A stretch of 60,211 nt of DNA, taken from contig JAEUSV010000098.1 of assembly GCA_016788485.1 (NCBI GenBank), forward strand, positions 1-60,211, read 5' to 3'. The position numbers and the translations under genes were made by a program. A model generated the notes under the pieces. That model saw nothing but the letters and a program-made list of their open reading frames with translations, had not been told where the DNA came from and made no database searches. Below are positions 15,156 to 21,511 of this stretch, piece after piece (the first letter of the stretch is position 1; each line of letters starts with the position of its first letter). The stretch comes from Flavobacteriales bacterium (GTDB lineage: Bacteria; Bacteroidota; Bacteroidia; Flavobacteriales_F; PHOS-HE28).

Positions 15156-18100
15156 TTAAAAGGGATGGGGCGTGGCCGCTGCCATGGTGGGCAGGGCCAG
15201 GGTGACGACCGTGCCTCCGCCATCACCGATCTCCAACTCCACCGAGCCGCCGAGCAGCGAGGTGAGCTCGCCGATGATCACGTAACCGAGCCCCTGCATC
15301 TCCGGGTCGCCGTGGTCCATGCCCCTACGCCCATGCTCACCGTGCAGGATGTCGCGCACATGGTCCAGGGCCTTCGGCGAGATGCCCCTTCCCGTGTCGG
15401 CCACGCGCAAGAGGTAGCGGTCGCCCACCTGAACGCCGTGCACGGTGACCGTGCCGTTGGGCGCATAGTTCACCGCATTGGCCACGATGTTCTGCAGGAT
15501 GATCAGCACCACATCGCGGTCCGTGCGCACCACATCGTCCATGGGCACTTCGTTGTGCAGGGTGACGCCCTGGCCAGCCGCGGGTTCGCGCATGGTGTCG
15601 AGCACCTCCTCCACCAACGGGTTCATGGCCACGTGGCGCGGCCGCAGCTCGATGTGCCCGCCTTGGTGCTTGATCCAGTTGAGGATGTTGCGCGCGTTGG
15701 CGTGGAGCTTGTCGCTGCTCGCCGCGATGTCGCGCAGGTCCTCATCGACCACGCTCACGCGTCCGCGCATCGACCTCGCCACCCGGGCGATGAACCGGAG
15801 CGGTGTGACGATGTCATGCGAGATGATGGAGACCAGGCGTTCCTTGAGCTCCACGGAGCGGTGCAGTTGTTCGTTGGCCCGCTGCAGCTCCTGGGTGCGT
15901 TCGCGCACGGCCTGCTCCAGCTCCTCGTTGCGGCGCCGCAGCCGGCGCTCGTTCAAGCGCAGCAGTGTGAGCAGGAGCAGCCCGGTCCCCACGCCGGAGA
16001 GCGCCAGGAACCACCAGCGCCGATGCAGGGGCGCCTCGACCCGGAAGCGTAGCAGCGTGGGCGCTCGGTCGGTCACTGCCCCAAGGACGCGCACTTGGAG
16101 TTCGTACTCGCCCGGCTGGAACCGTGCGAAGCGCAGCTCACGCTCCTTGATGCCCAAAGCCGACCAATCGGCCTGCATGCCCTTGATCCGGTACTCGAGG
16201 TGGGCGTTCACCGGGGAGCCCCAATACGGCAGTGACAGCTTCACCCGGAGCTCGCCGTGGTCCGGAGGCAGCACCAGATCACCGCCCACGGTCATCGGCG
16301 CTCCGTCAAGGTGCAGTTCGGTGATGCGCACCAGGCCTGAGGGCACCGGATCGGGCAGGCTTGTCGGATCGAACGCCACCACGCCTTCCAGCGAAGGGAA
16401 GGCCAGATGCCCGTTGCCCAGCTCAAGGAAGGGAGGGTCGCAACCGCCGTTCAGCTCCGCGTTCCGGATGCCATCGTCGACCCCGTAATAGGCGTAGTAG
16501 ACGTGGTGCGACGGGTCGTGCAGCCAGGTGTGCAGGTCCGCCATCGCCATTCGGAAGAGCCCCCTGTTCGTGCTCATCCACAACATCCCCTTCCCATCGA
16601 GCGCAAAGGCATGCACATGGGTCAGGAAACCCTGCCTGTCCATCGGCAGGCGCTTCGGCCTGCCATCGACCATGACATACGCCCCGCTTCCGTAGGTGCC
16701 GATGAGCACGAGACCATCCACCTTGCGGATCACACGGACGCATGAGCCCTCGAACTGCGAGAGGGTGTCAGAGCGCCCATCGGCATGAAAGCGCAACACT
16801 CCAGCGCAGGTCGCCGCCCACACCACGTCATCGATCACGGTGAACGCATTGGTTCCTCCCACATGGCCCGTCATCCGACGATAGCGCCCTTCCCTGAGCA
16901 CTCCGATGCCCAGCATATCGCCCACCACAAGGCTGTCACCGACCCTGCAGATGGCCGTGATCAGCCCATCGGGCAATCGGCCGATGTCCTGTTCGATCCC
17001 CGTGCGCGGATCAAGGTCGATCACACGATCATGGCGTGCCACCAACAGGTGTCCGTTCTCCAGGCCCAGCGCGAACTGGTAGTTGATGGCGATGGAGCCC
17101 CGTTCGATCACATTGCTGCATCCCGTTCGGGTGAACAGGGTGCGGTACGCGTTGGAGAAGGCCACGATGGAATCGGGGCCCAGCGCATGCAGGGCGTAAT
17201 AGGCCTGGTTGCCACCCTCGGGCACCGGGTCGCACACCAACGTGCGGATGGCCCTTTCACGGTAGACGAACAGTCCCTTGGTATCGGTCCCCACGAACAG
17301 CACACGATGGCGGGGGCTCCACAGCCAGGTATTGATCAGGCAGCGGTCCGGCAGTTCCAACGGCAGCCGCTCCATGATGACGTGCTTCCCATCCACGCCA
17401 TGGGACACCATGAAGAGGTGCCTGTCCTGAACGATGAGCGTGTGATCACGGTTCCCATGCTGCTTCTGCCTGCCTTTGAGGAAGACGGCGGCCGGGTCGA
17501 TCCCGGGGTCGTGGGCCACCTCCACGGGCCGTGTGCGCCCCGTGACCGGGTCGATGGCGAACAATGGACCCGACCTGTCCACACCGTACCACACACCATC
17601 CAGGTGGAAGAAGCGGCTCAATTCACGGTCATACCGGACCACCGCCAGCAGCGAATCCCGTTCGTAGTGCAGCAGCGCCTGTTCACCTGCAGCCGTCCAA
17701 TGCCCACCTGTACCCGCCTGGATGCGATAGCCTTTCCGGGGATCCAACAGGTGGCCGCCACGCAGGGTGTCCCTCCTGTCCGTGAGCCGCTCACTGAGCG
17801 CGGCGTAGGGCAGCACGCCGTCCACGAAATGCTCGCGTACGTGGAAGTTGTCGGCGGTCCAGGTCTGCAACACCTGCCCGTTGAACAGGCAATAACGATC
17901 GCCGATCGTGTTGGAGATCAGCAACGAACCGTCAGCCACCTGGATGATGCCCCGGAACCGGTCCATCGGGTTCTCGTGCAGCCGGGGCAGGGACACGCTC
18001 TCGAAGCGGTCGCCATCGTACCGCACCAGGCCTCCCTCGGTGGTGAGCCAGAGGTAACCCTCCGCATCCATGGCCAGGTCGATCACGCTGTTCTGGGGCA

Positions 18101-18242
18101 GCCCGTTCTGCGAAGTGAACTGCAGCGACAGCCATGGCGGTGGTTCCTGCGCCCGCATGATCCCCGGCACCCAACAGGCGAGCAGGGAAGCCAGCACCTG
18201 ACCGAGCTGGCGGAGGCGACGTTCAGGACACCTCGTAGCCAT
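15156..18242 (-). CDS. Periplasmic-propeller sensor histidine kinase
   Basis: A 1028-residue kinase. A signal peptide (ends ..IMRAQ) leads into a large two-component-regulator propeller domain with blades such as NGLPQNSVIDLAMDAEGYLW, up to about residue 650. A Y_Y_Y-type beta-sandwich (about 660-745), one membrane helix (about 750-770) and a coiled coil follow. The HisKA domain has SIISHDIVTPL (His809), and the HATPase domain has the N box N-A-V-N-Y-A-P-N and G1 box D-T-G-R-G-I. There is no receiver or DNA-binding domain, so it must signal through a separate partner. The start at 18242 overlaps the 3' end of the upstream response regulator by 20 bp, which makes that regulator the obvious partner. 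Confidence 0.88.
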   Translation of the reverse strand: MATRCPERRLRQLGQVLASLLACWVPGIMRAQEPPPWLSLQFTSQNGLPQNSVIDLAMDAEGYLWLTTEGGLVRYDGDRFESVSLPRLHENPMDRFRGIIQVADGSLLISNTIGDRYCLFNGQVLQTWTADNFHVREHFVDGVLPYAALSERLTDRRDTLRGGHLLDPRKGYRIQAGTGGHWTAAGEQALLHYERDSLLAVVRYDRELSRFFHLDGVWYGVDRSGPLFAIDPVTGRTRPVEVAHDPGIDPAAVFLKGRQKQHGNRDHTLIVQDRHLFMVSHGVDGKHVIMERLPLELPDRCLINTWLWSPRHRVLFVGTDTKGLFVYRERAIRTLVCDPVPEGGNQAYYALHALGPDSIVAFSNAYRTLFTRTGCSNVIERGSIAINYQFALGLENGHLLVARHDRVIDLDPRTGIEQDIGRLPDGLITAICRVGDSLVVGDMLGIGVLREGRYRRMTGHVGGTNAFTVIDDVVWAATCAGVLRFHADGRSDTLSQFEGSCVRVIRKVDGLVLIGTYGSGAYVMVDGRPKRLPMDRQGFLTHVHAFALDGKGMLWMSTNRGLFRMAMADLHTWLHDPSHHVYYAYYGVDDGIRNAELNGGCDPPFLELGNGHLAFPSLEGVVAFDPTSLPDPVPSGLVRITELHLDGAPMTVGGDLVLPPDHGELRVKLSLPYWGSPVNAHLEYRIKGMQADWSALGIKERELRFARFQPGEYELQVRVLGAVTDRAPTLLRFRVEAPLHRRWWFLALSGVGTGLLLLTLLRLNERRLRRRNEELEQAVRERTQELQRANEQLHRSVELKERLVSIISHDIVTPLRFIARVARSMRGRVSVVDEDLRDIAASSDKLHANARNILNWIKHQGGHIELRPRHVAMNPLVEEVLDTMREPAAGQGVTLHNEVPMDDVVRTDRDVVLIILQNIVANAVNYAPNGTVTVHGVQVGDRYLLRVADTGRGISPKALDHVRDILHGEHGRRGMDHGDPEMQGLGYVIIGELTSLLGGSVELEIGDGGGTVVTLALPTMAAATPHPF

Positions 18243-18861
18243 GCACCTGCGCAAGCCGTTGGAGCTCCAGCACGTTCGAGACACCCAGCTTGTCGAACAG
18301 GCGTGCCTTGTAAGTGGCCACCGTGGTGGGACGCAGGTCGAGCCGTTCCGCGATGTCGCGCACCGCAAGACCACGTAGAAGCTCGTTCATGACCATGAGC
18401 TCACGGTCCGAAAGGCCGGTGAAGGGGCTGGCGGACATGGATGCGGTGCGGTCGCCCTGGCGCAGCTCCATCTCCTCGCTCATGTACTCGCGCCCCTGGC
18501 ATACGGCGCGGATGGCGCGCATCACCTCCTCCTCCGTGGCCTGCTTGCTCAGGAACCCCGATCCACCCATGGCCATCACGCGCGGGGCATAGACCGCCTC
18601 GGGGCTCATCGAATACACCAGCACCCGCATGGCGGGGTGGCGCAGCCTGATCGGCTCGAGCACGTCGAGCGCATGCCCATCGCCGAGCTGCAGGTCAAGG
18701 ATGAGCAGGTCGGGGCTTCCGGCCTCCAACGCCTTCATGAGCTCTGCAAGGCTGCCCACTTCGGTCACCTGACGCACCCCGAACCTGTCCTGCAACAGGT
18801 TGCGAAGCCCACGCCGGATGATCACGTGATCATCCGCGACAAGCACGTTCCGTGCGATCAT
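18223..18861 (-). CDS. NarL/LuxR-family response regulator
   Basis: A 212-residue regulator. The receiver domain has the acidic pair Asp10/Asp11, the phosphoacceptor Asp56 in LLILDLQ, Ser84 and Lys106 in FLSKQ. The C-terminal LuxR-type helix-turn-helix has L-S-D-R-E-L near residue 150 and T-V-A-T-Y-K-A-R-L-F-D-K-L-G-V. It is encoded just upstream of, and overlapping, the propeller kinase, forming a two-component pair. Targets are unknown. A GAGATTTG element ends 4 nt before the ATG, so it may be translated from a leaderless mRNA. Confidence 0.9.
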   Translation of the reverse strand: MIARNVLVADDHVIIRRGLRNLLQDRFGVRQVTEVGSLAELMKALEAGSPDLLILDLQLGDGHALDVLEPIRLRHPAMRVLVYSMSPEAVYAPRVMAMGGSGFLSKQATEEEVMRAIRAVCQGREYMSEEMELRQGDRTASMSASPFTGLSDRELMVMNELLRGLAVRDIAERLDLRPTTVATYKARLFDKLGVSNVLELQRLAQVHGYEVS

Positions 18862-18910: not shown

Positions 18911-18926
18911 GTAGTTACTGAACTAC
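18911..18926. promoter_or_regulatory. Inverted repeat GTAGTT-ACTG-AACTAC, possible operator
   Basis: Perfect 6-bp arms around a 4-bp centre, in the divergent region between the response regulator and the structured RNA, about 23 bp upstream of the RNA's -7 element. It could bind the neighbouring NarL-type regulator, but nothing proves this. Confidence 0.35.
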
Positions 18927-18948: not shown

Positions 18949-18956
18949 TACGTTTG
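18949..18956 (+). promoter_or_regulatory. -7 promoter element TACGTTTG of the structured RNA
   Basis: Perfect match to the Bacteroidota -7 consensus TAnnTTTG, placing the transcript start near 18962. Confidence 0.7.
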
Positions 18957-18962
18957 CGGTGT

Positions 18963-19118
18963 GTTGGTGTTTGGACGAACGAACAAGCCTTCCCTCTGGT
19001 CCAAGAGGGGTCTGAACCGGGGTTGACCCGGGGATGGCCAGGAGAGCCTGGCGGGCCGGAGGCAGGCTTGCTTCGTCCGAAAACTGGAAGCGCCCGCGGA
19101 AGCGGGCGCTTCTCTTTT
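18963..19118 (+). ncRNA. Structured non-coding RNA or attenuating 5' leader of unknown class
   Basis: A compact unit of about 155 nt: promoter, branched structure, intrinsic terminator. Positions 18970-18979 pair with 19072-19081 (GGACGAA/TTCGTCC core), and CAAGCCT (18984-18990) pairs with AGGCTTG (19064-19070). Inside this stem lie three hairpins: CCCTCT/AGAGGG (18992-19009), CCGGG/CCCGG (19017-19031) and GCCAGG/CCTGGC (19037-19052). A strong terminator follows. It could be a free small RNA, or a riboswitch or attenuator for the phosphoesterase gene starting at 19148. It lacks the features I know for SRP RNA, tmRNA, TPP, cobalamin or c-di-GMP elements. Confidence 0.65.
19087..19118 (+). terminator. 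Intrinsic terminator with 11-bp stem and GGAA tetraloop
   Basis: GAAGCGCCCGC (19087-19097) and GCGGGCGCTTC (19102-19112) pair perfectly around a GNRA-type loop, followed by TCTTTT. It ends about 30 nt before the next start codon. Confidence 0.85.
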
Positions 19119-19147
19119 CCCCTCCAGGATCCCGATCTTCAGGCCCA

Positions 19148-21511
19148 ATGGAGGTCCTCCAAGGCATCCGGCGACGGCTCCGACAGGCCGACCGGCAGGC
19201 GCTCGCGTTCAGCGGACTGGCCATGGTGCTGGCGGTGCTGGCCATGGCCGCACCCCTCCGCAGCGCGGCTCCCGTGGAGCCCCGCGTGGGCGGCCTGCTC
19301 GTATGGGCCGCGGTGCTCGAGCTGGTGCACGGCTTCCGGCGCGCCACACCGGCCGATCGGCGTTCGGCCTGGCTGAGCGGCGCGGTGTCGCTCGTGGTCG
19401 GCCTGCTGCTGATCAACGCTGTGCTCTTCCGCAGCTCGGCGCTGGTGGTGCTGCTGGCCGGCACGTTCGCGCTCGATGCTTTGCGCCACGTCGGCCGCGG
19501 ATTGCAGGCCCACCGGCAGGGACTGCGGTACAGCGCGCCCGCCCTCTCCTTCGTGGGCAACGCTGGCCTCGTGCTCTTCCTCGCCGCGCTCAGCCCCTTC
19601 ACCATCGGGTGGACGGTGGCCATCGCCGGCGCCGCGCGCATCACCGGCATCGCCTTCACCATCCTGCGCAGCCGCACCGGCGAGCTCGATGAGGCCGGCG
19701 ACGATGCCGTGCGCGCCATCGGCATGGGCGACGATGCCGAGGTGATGGACGAGGGACAGCGCATGGAGACCGAGGAGGCCGCGCGCGCGCCCATCGACAC
19801 GCGCTGGATCTTGAGCCTGGTGGCCATCCTCTTCGCCATCCACCTGGGCCGCATGGGCCTCGACCGCACCGCGCTCGGCATCCTCTCGCCGCTGCTCGCC
19901 CTGGTGGGCGACTGCGTGATCGCGCTCCTCATCGCCTACGGCGTGCTAGCTCCGTTGCGCGCGCTCTTCCGCGGGGTGAGCGCTCCGCTGGAACGCGCGG
20001 GCTGGCGCTGGGTGCAACGCGCACCGAAGGATAAGCGTCGGTGGTGGACCCTGCGCGCCGCCGTGCGTGCCTGGCTGCTGCACCGCCTGCGCACCGGCAT
20101 CCGCCTGCGCACCGCCGCCTACTCGCTGCGCGCCGCCGTGCGTAACGGCCTGCAGATCGGCCTGCCCTTCAGCGCACTGCTCGCCGCCACCATGCCGGTG
20201 TGGGGAATGAGCTGGTACTTCGACACCGAGAACTGGGCCGCGGGCGTGTGGGACAGCTGGGCCGCCAACCACACCGACACGTGGCGAGAGGCCATGGTGA
20301 AGGCCGTTACACCCACGCCCACCGCCAATGACTTCCGCCTGGCGCCCCCCGGCGTGGACGACAGCACCGACTTCCGCTTCGTGATCATCGGCGACCCCGG
20401 CGAAGGCGACCCCTCGCAATGGGTGCTCAAGGACCGCATCCTCGCCGTGGCCGAACACCCGGAAACGCGCTTCGTGGTGATCAGCAGCGACGTGGTGTAC
20501 CCCACCGGTGCGCTGCGCGACTACGAACGCAAGTTCTGGTTGCCGTTCAAGGGCGTGACCAAGCCCGTGTACGCGATCCCGGGCAACCACGACTGGTACG
20601 ATGCGCTGGAGGGGTTCGCCGCGACCTTCTATACCGAGGACGCCGCGCGCACCGCCATGCATGCGCGCATCGAGGCCGACCTGAAGCTCACCACCACCAC
20701 CGATGCGCGCGTGGAGGAGATGCTCGCCGAGGCCCGGCGCCTTCGCGGCCTGTACGGCGTTCCCACCGGCCACCAGACCGCGCCATTCTTCCAGGTGCGC
20801 TGCGGCGACCTGGTCTTCATCGCCATCGATACCGGCGTGCTTCGCCGTGCGGACCCCGTTCAGCTGGCGTGGCTGAAGGCCGTGCTGGAGGCCAACAAGG
20901 GACGCCTGGTCTTCGCCCTGCTTGGGCATCCGTTCTACGCCATCGGCGAGTACCAGGGCGATATGACGCCGGAGTTCGCCGCGCTTCATAAGCTGTTGAA
21001 GGAACACCACGTGACCATTGCCATGGCGGGCGACACGCACGACCTGGAGTTCTACCTGGAACACGACAGCGCCGGTGGCCCGCCCATGCACCACTTCGTC
21101 AACGGCGGTGGCGGCGCTTACCTGAGCCTGGGCGCGGCGCTCGCACCGCCCGAACGCATGCCCACCAGCACCTGGGCGCACTACCCGGCGCGCGCGCCGC
21201 TCACCGCCAAGATCGACCGGCTGACCCCATGGTACAAGCGCCCGGCATGGACCTGGACCACGAAGTACCAAGGCTGGCCCTTCAGCGCCGAATGGCTCAG
21301 CGCGGCCTTCGACCACAACGAGGCGCCCTTTTTCCAGAGCTTCTTCGAGGTGCGCGTGGAGCGCTCCAGCGGCCTGCTGCGCCTGATCGCGCACGGGGTC
21401 GATGGACCGCTGAAATGGAGGGACCTGCAACGTTCACCGGACCTGCCCTTGCACAGCGGCGAACCGGGCGGTGTGGCGGAGTGGACCTTTCCCCTGCCCG
21501 CGGTGAAGTGA
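19148..21511 (+). CDS. Membrane-anchored calcineurin-like phosphoesterase
   Basis: A 787-residue protein. The first 190 or so residues contain several paired helices resembling the HdeD/DUF308 fold. More membrane segments lie at about 225-275 and 335-350. A calcineurin-like metallophosphoesterase domain follows from about residue 410. Its motifs are GDPGEGD (Asp416), SSDVVYP, PGNHDWYD (residues 478-485), LLGHPFY and AGDTHD. The first block lacks the usual D-x-H histidine and the last is G-D-T-H rather than G-H-x-H, so metal binding may deviate. A polar C-terminal part has many Trp and Tyr residues. ATG 19148 was chosen because earlier in-frame codons fall inside the structured RNA. Substrate unknown. 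Confidence 0.75.
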   Translation: MEVLQGIRRRLRQADRQALAFSGLAMVLAVLAMAAPLRSAAPVEPRVGGLLVWAAVLELVHGFRRATPADRRSAWLSGAVSLVVGLLLINAVLFRSSALVVLLAGTFALDALRHVGRGLQAHRQGLRYSAPALSFVGNAGLVLFLAALSPFTIGWTVAIAGAARITGIAFTILRSRTGELDEAGDDAVRAIGMGDDAEVMDEGQRMETEEAARAPIDTRWILSLVAILFAIHLGRMGLDRTALGILSPLLALVGDCVIALLIAYGVLAPLRALFRGVSAPLERAGWRWVQRAPKDKRRWWTLRAAVRAWLLHRLRTGIRLRTAAYSLRAAVRNGLQIGLPFSALLAATMPVWGMSWYFDTENWAAGVWDSWAANHTDTWREAMVKAVTPTPTANDFRLAPPGVDDSTDFRFVIIGDPGEGDPSQWVLKDRILAVAEHPETRFVVISSDVVYPTGALRDYERKFWLPFKGVTKPVYAIPGNHDWYDALEGFAATFYTEDAARTAMHARIEADLKLTTTTDARVEEMLAEARRLRGLYGVPTGHQTAPFFQVRCGDLVFIAIDTGVLRRADPVQLAWLKAVLEANKGRLVFALLGHPFYAIGEYQGDMTPEFAALHKLLKEHHVTIAMAGDTHDLEFYLEHDSAGGPPMHHFVNGGGGAYLSLGAALAPPERMPTSTWAHYPARAPLTAKIDRLTPWYKRPAWTWTTKYQGWPFSAEWLSAAFDHNEAPFFQSFFEVRVERSSGLLRLIAHGVDGPLKWRDLQRSPDLPLHSGEPGGVAEWTFPLPAVK

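Follow-up and report, generated by a model that had tools for sequence, protein, structure and literature searches.

Small RNAs linked to response regulators

In the Gac/Rsm and BarA-UvrY/Csr systems of Gammaproteobacteria, LuxR/NarL-type response regulators switch on small RNAs (sRNAs; RsmX/Y/Z and CsrB/C) with unpaired GGA motifs that sequester RsmA/CsrA (PMC2375449, PMC7652899). Palindromic sites lie upstream of the sRNA promoters, and each genome encodes several such RNAs (PMC2375449, PMC7652899); one GGA motif in an RNA is not enough to lift RsmA repression in Pseudomonas (PMC2375449). Bacteroidota have few known sRNA circuits. The FopS/GibS RNAs of Bacteroides, described together with RbpB, form a multi-copy family, of which FopS consists of a single-stranded 5' stretch and a terminator, acts via seeds and is reported as deposited in Rfam (PMC11697453). 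6S-Flavo (RF01685) is another structured RNA of Bacteroidota. Nothing matching an sRNA linked to response regulators (RRs) in Bacteroidota was found in the open-access literature searched.

The RNA described here lies in a 60,211-nt stretch of DNA from a Flavobacteriales bacterium (contig JAEUSV010000098.1; the whole stretch analysed, hereafter the window) and is a member of a previously undescribed family of one Bacteroidia genus. Its circuit resembles Gac/Rsm in outline, with a LuxR/NarL-type RR, a palindromic site upstream of the sRNA promoter, unpaired purine motifs containing GGA and several copies per genome (PMC2375449, PMC7652899). In contrast to Gac/Rsm, the motif is GAGAG instead of ANGGA, each RNA is typically found beside an RR gene of its own, and the window copy carries one motif. 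Activation by the RR would be in keeping with the promoter architecture. The RNA is not a CsrB/Rsm family member, because it has no Rfam match at gathering or permissive thresholds, no CsrA was found and it holds one GAGAG, whereas several unpaired GGA motifs characterize CsrB/Rsm RNAs. The CsrB and RsmX/Y/Z models did not match at gathering score; in the permissive scan rsmX scored 17.4 bits, where its cut-off is 56, and did so on the opposite strand. CsrA/RsmA was detected in none of 45 genus genomes (the window's own assembly, G000, being 84% complete) by a search that was positive in E. coli, B. subtilis and T. maritima. Membership of the FopS family is likewise not indicated by the Rfam scan, and the long covarying rod and RR linkage of this RNA set it apart from FopS/GibS; RR linkage and multiple copies also distinguish it from 6S-Flavo, for which the window's genome, in its 84% complete assembly, gave no match even at E 10, so that 6S-Flavo is probably but not certainly absent.

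Locus and promoter architecture

The RNA is predicted as a transcript of about 155 nt (positions 18961–19118, forward strand), its start placed a few nucleotides past the promoter element and its end at the T run of a terminator. Divergent from it lies an RR gene of the NarL/FixJ type (18223–18861, reverse strand; Pfam Response_reg and GerE), followed on its 3' side by a sensor kinase gene (15156–18374, reverse strand; Reg_prop and HATPase_c), which probably starts later than the GTG of its open reading frame; similarity to this kinase was also found beside related regulators when the neighbourhoods of RR-relative loci were checked. Downstream of the RNA is a membrane metallophosphoesterase gene (19148–21511, forward strand; Metallophos and DUF308). 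The preliminary description held that no coding start precedes 19148 outside the RNA unit. An in-frame ATG at 19034 mechanically extends the phosphoesterase frame in the list of open reading frames; it falls inside the RNA, and covariation together with 4-nt indels in the homologue argues that this region is RNA and not protein-coding.

A -7 promoter element of the Bacteroidetes type (TANNTTTG) is present as TACGTTTG at 18949–18956 (forward strand) and is identical in G014, the genome with the closest homologue. The element thus stands where it had been placed, though its description as a perfect promoter does not hold: taken by itself, TANNTTTG occurs in the window about as often as chance predicts (three seen, 2.9 expected), and no TTTG element lies 15–25 nt upstream of TACGTTTG, that region being occupied by a perfect palindrome, GTAGTTACTGAACTAC (18911–18926, forward strand). 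This palindrome, a putative RR binding site, ends 22 nt before TACGTTTG and has its one exact match in the window at this position. Transcription in Bacteroidetes usually starts some 4–6 nt after the -7 element. If so here, the palindrome would be centred near -42, a normal position for an activator.

The arrangement recurs at 20 sites of the genus, with a GTNG-N8-CTAC palindrome 22–23 nt before a TANNTT element; CTAC is invariant, the centre is A/T-rich in most and the spacer is largely unconserved. The palindrome of G014 is GTAGTCAGGTAACTAC, again 22 nt from the promoter element and with a different spacer sequence. A strict pattern of palindrome, 22 nt and promoter element gave 14 matches in 45 genomes, no more than a reversed control, so the evidence lies in where the matches stand and not in how many there are: 12 of the 14 sit between an RR and its RNA. 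The other two (L167, G000:C77:1399-1443; L170, G020:C1:45059-45103) lie upstream of genes for secreted-looking repeat proteins, 38–40 nt from the ATG; the two proteins are 39% identical to each other over 112 aa, and the sites may be further RR targets or chance matches.

A covarying fold with a conserved bulge

The sequence from 18956 to 19120 is strongly structured (minimum free energy, MFE, -92.6 kcal/mol; z -5.3; stability reached by none of 200 shuffles), which bears out the view that a folded RNA follows the promoter. The closing stem P1 previously noted is also borne out: in the MFE structure, UUUGGACGAA (18970–18979) pairs with UUCGUCCGAA (19072–19081), so that the stem spans 18970–19081 on the forward strand and leads on into the region 18986–19068; P1 is present but shorter in G014. 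At the 3' end, an 11-bp hairpin with a GGAA loop (19087–19112; z -5.6) and a T run (19115–19118) form the GNRA-capped intrinsic terminator that had been proposed (19087–19118, forward strand), and a terminator-like hairpin is present in G014 too. The mechanical terminator scan did not list it because its T run is short, at 4 nt.

The region 18986–19068 (forward strand) is a covarying core in both a two-genome and a 12-sequence alignment. Ungapped comparison of the window with G014 retains all 27 consensus pairs, seven of them changed on both sides. In a seven-sequence alignment 96.3% of cells are paired, with double-sided changes in 18 of 27 pairs, and in the 12-sequence alignment 94.1%, with double-sided changes in 16 of 22 pairs (51 cells); having been fitted to the model, both alignments are biased in its favour, which the ungapped comparison is not. 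For the 12 sequences, none of 500 shuffles reached any of the measures and slid controls were 32–49% paired.

The three internal hairpins of the preliminary description are a feature of the single-sequence MFE structure and were rejected comparatively: the pairs found only in that fold are retained in 46% of cells, those found only in a bulged consensus in 95%. For the window sequence alone, the three-hairpin fold is better by 3.8 kcal/mol and partly pairs the motif, so the window's own MFE structure differs from the comparative one. Since homologues keep the pairs of the bulged fold, the apical part is most plausibly GG-GGUC...GGCC-AGGAGAG-CC, and its conserved feature would be a 7-nt 3' bulge between two helices, AGGAGAG (19040–19046, forward strand), with GAGAG unpaired, in place of three hairpins. 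Each of the 12 core sequences has the bulge at the aligned position, containing GAGAG or a motif that differs from it by one letter. The idea that AGGAG pairs with the anti-Shine-Dalgarno sequence was considered and dropped, since GAGAG is conserved and AGGAGG is not.

A family linked to NarL-type response regulators

Plain blastn against 98 relatives yielded one true homologue (G014:C100; 74% identity over query positions 8–126), likewise divergent from an RR orthologue, and otherwise short chance matches. The motif GTTGGTGTTTGGACGAACG occurs exactly in the window and G014 only among 45 genomes; its other matches carry 2–3 mismatches, as a reversed control also gives, and were discarded. Relatives of the RR were fetched through protein similarity alone, giving 26 loci with the window and G014 included. 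At 16 of these, a palindrome and TANNTT element at 22–23 nt point away from the RR, as in the window. Of the other ten, four (L125, L133, L135 and L136) contain the RNA core but match the upstream site less strictly, and inspection of the fetched loci revealed no such RNA at L126–L130 and L134. In the RR clade adjoining rimO, three genomes carry the RNA (L125, L133, L210) and five show none (L126–L130), which suggests RNA loss.

A covariance model built from the window and G014 only (R1) gave expected-strand matches at eight more loci (E 1.3e-8 to 2e-3), of which seven had been fetched via the RR protein only and one, L171, via the promoter pattern. These are L121 (1.3e-8), L119 (2.9e-7), L135 (7e-7), L132 (4e-6), L171 (8e-6), L125 (5e-5), L136 (9e-4) and L133 (2e-3). 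The window thus seeds a model that matches independent, covarying loci; the symmetric stem accounts for weaker matches on the other strand at some of them. Modelling of this kind had been suggested for homologues upstream of phosphoesterase genes; the homologues were found beside RR genes instead. A refined model of seven sequences (R2), run on 45 whole genus genomes, added copies at G038:C20, G042:C50 and G038:C32, all three divergent beside an RR relative. Weak R1 genome matches at L188–L198 were not recovered by R2 and were taken as chance; the four checked, L188–L191, have no RR.

Two copies are present in the window's genome (here and on C118), in which eight RR relatives were found, and three in G014, nearly all beside RR genes. 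An orphan copy (L212, G014:C86:4811-4895) has the palindrome, the 23-nt spacing, TAGGTTTG and the bulge GGGAGAA, with no RR within the fetched flank. A third model (R3) gave no match outside the genus in 395 genomes of the class, a weak negative from a low-sensitivity search that scored 13 candidates per genome and missed a known weak member in G016. The RNA family and its RR linkage are well supported. Palindrome, RR link and conserved bulge had all been missed in the preliminary description.

Other RR relatives carry longer RNAs of two types. Type C (L119, L121, L132, L171, L201 and L202) contains the core. Type B (L113–L118, L120 and L122–L124) gave no R2 match and is joined to the family solely by where it lies, by the architecture of its promoter, by RR orthology and by the motif; a six-sequence alignment of type B shows double-sided changes in 27 of 84 predicted pairs. 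The RNAs at L113–L124 (e.g. L117:2199-2469) are about 260–280 nt long, with three or four GAGAG and a covarying fold of their own. RNA types follow RR clades, with six changes on the RR tree compared to 18.8 with shuffled labels. Across 25 RNAs, which are related and therefore not independent, GAGAG was counted 71 times where dinucleotide shuffles predict 17 (maximum among 200 shuffles, 27), and three times on the opposite strand, with a mean unpaired probability of 0.76 compared to 0.33 overall. It occurs once in the window's copy and three to six times in most longer relatives.

Proposed circuit and alternatives

The reading given slightly better than even confidence is that the window encodes a free RNA of about 155 nt, activated by the RR, that presents its GAGAG bulge in trans to a partner other than CsrA. 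The phosphorylated NarL-type RR would bind the palindrome centred near -42 and activate transcription of the sRNA, steps that we infer from the promoter region; the RNA would then act in trans, its unpaired bulge offered to a partner that is probably an RNA-binding protein, in what is the least certain step. A two-component system could thereby act post-transcriptionally, as GacA does via RsmX/Y/Z. With CsrA not found in the 45 genus genomes, such a partner would be another protein. Its existence is a guess, which the window copy weakens by having one GAGAG only, though the single bulge could serve as a one-to-one binding site. More tentatively, Bacteroidota may own a Gac/Rsm-like form of signalling in which NarL-type RRs switch on GAGAG decoy RNAs that titrate a protein replacing CsrA. 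What the locus adds is a covariation-supported RNA family without an Rfam match, tied to one two-component class in Bacteroidota, and a suggested output for a group of sensor kinases that otherwise lack an explanation. If the RNAs do sequester a protein, the GAGAG bulge offers a direct pull-down route to a new global RNA-binding regulator, which would come from a genus whose genomes yielded no CsrA.

The main rival, itself rather unlikely, retains the RR-activated sRNA and has it base pair with target mRNAs through its 5' segment GUGUUGGUGUUUGGACGAACG or through GAGAG as a seed. That segment is identical in the window and G014 where much else has diverged, and the Bacteroides FopS/GibS sRNAs work through seeds (PMC11697453). 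In other genus genomes, however, it is found only with 2–3 mismatches and so is not a common feature of the family, while GAGAG would be a short, low-information seed held in a constrained bulge between helices.

It is improbable that the palindrome regulates the RR operon itself and that the RNA has a role unrelated to signalling, for instance ligand-binding or catalytic. The palindrome sits in an upstream region common to RR and RNA, and the conserved bulge could also belong to a ligand pocket; yet the fixed distance of 22–23 nt is to the RNA promoter, and L212, the orphan copy, retains both palindrome and spacing although its fetched flank contains no RR.

Still less probable is control of the phosphoesterase in cis, with the RNA as an attenuator or riboswitch that works by terminator read-through, one of two options originally put forward. 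Some read-through would be possible, as about 30 nt with no other TANNTTTG separate the terminator from the phosphoesterase gene. The RNA travels with the RR, however, and not with the phosphoesterase: in G014 a 296-aa open reading frame with no Pfam match intervenes between the two, and elsewhere the genes 3' of the RNA encode DHFR (convergent), an IS110 transposase, RimO, gamma-glutamyltranspeptidase, YceD, a papain-like peptidase (convergent) or an OmpA-family protein (convergent). The conserved linkage to a controlled gene expected of a riboswitch or attenuator is thus not seen, no conserved alternative antiterminator was found, and Rfam offers no match. With compensatory changes in homologues, association with the divergent RR and differing downstream genes, the RNA is real and most likely the other option, a free small RNA rather than a phosphoesterase leader.

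A divergent 6S or other housekeeping RNA, despite the rod-like fold and comparable length, is scarcely credible given the lack of an Rfam match, or of a 6S-Flavo match in the window's genome, and the two (here) and three (G014) copies, nearly all beside RR genes.

As its linkage is not conserved, the phosphoesterase (19148–21511) is not considered part of the RNA's function, and its homologues were not used further. Its close relatives are scattered among Chitinophagaceae, Planctomycetes, Acidobacteria and others, a patchy spread that suggests horizontal transfer.
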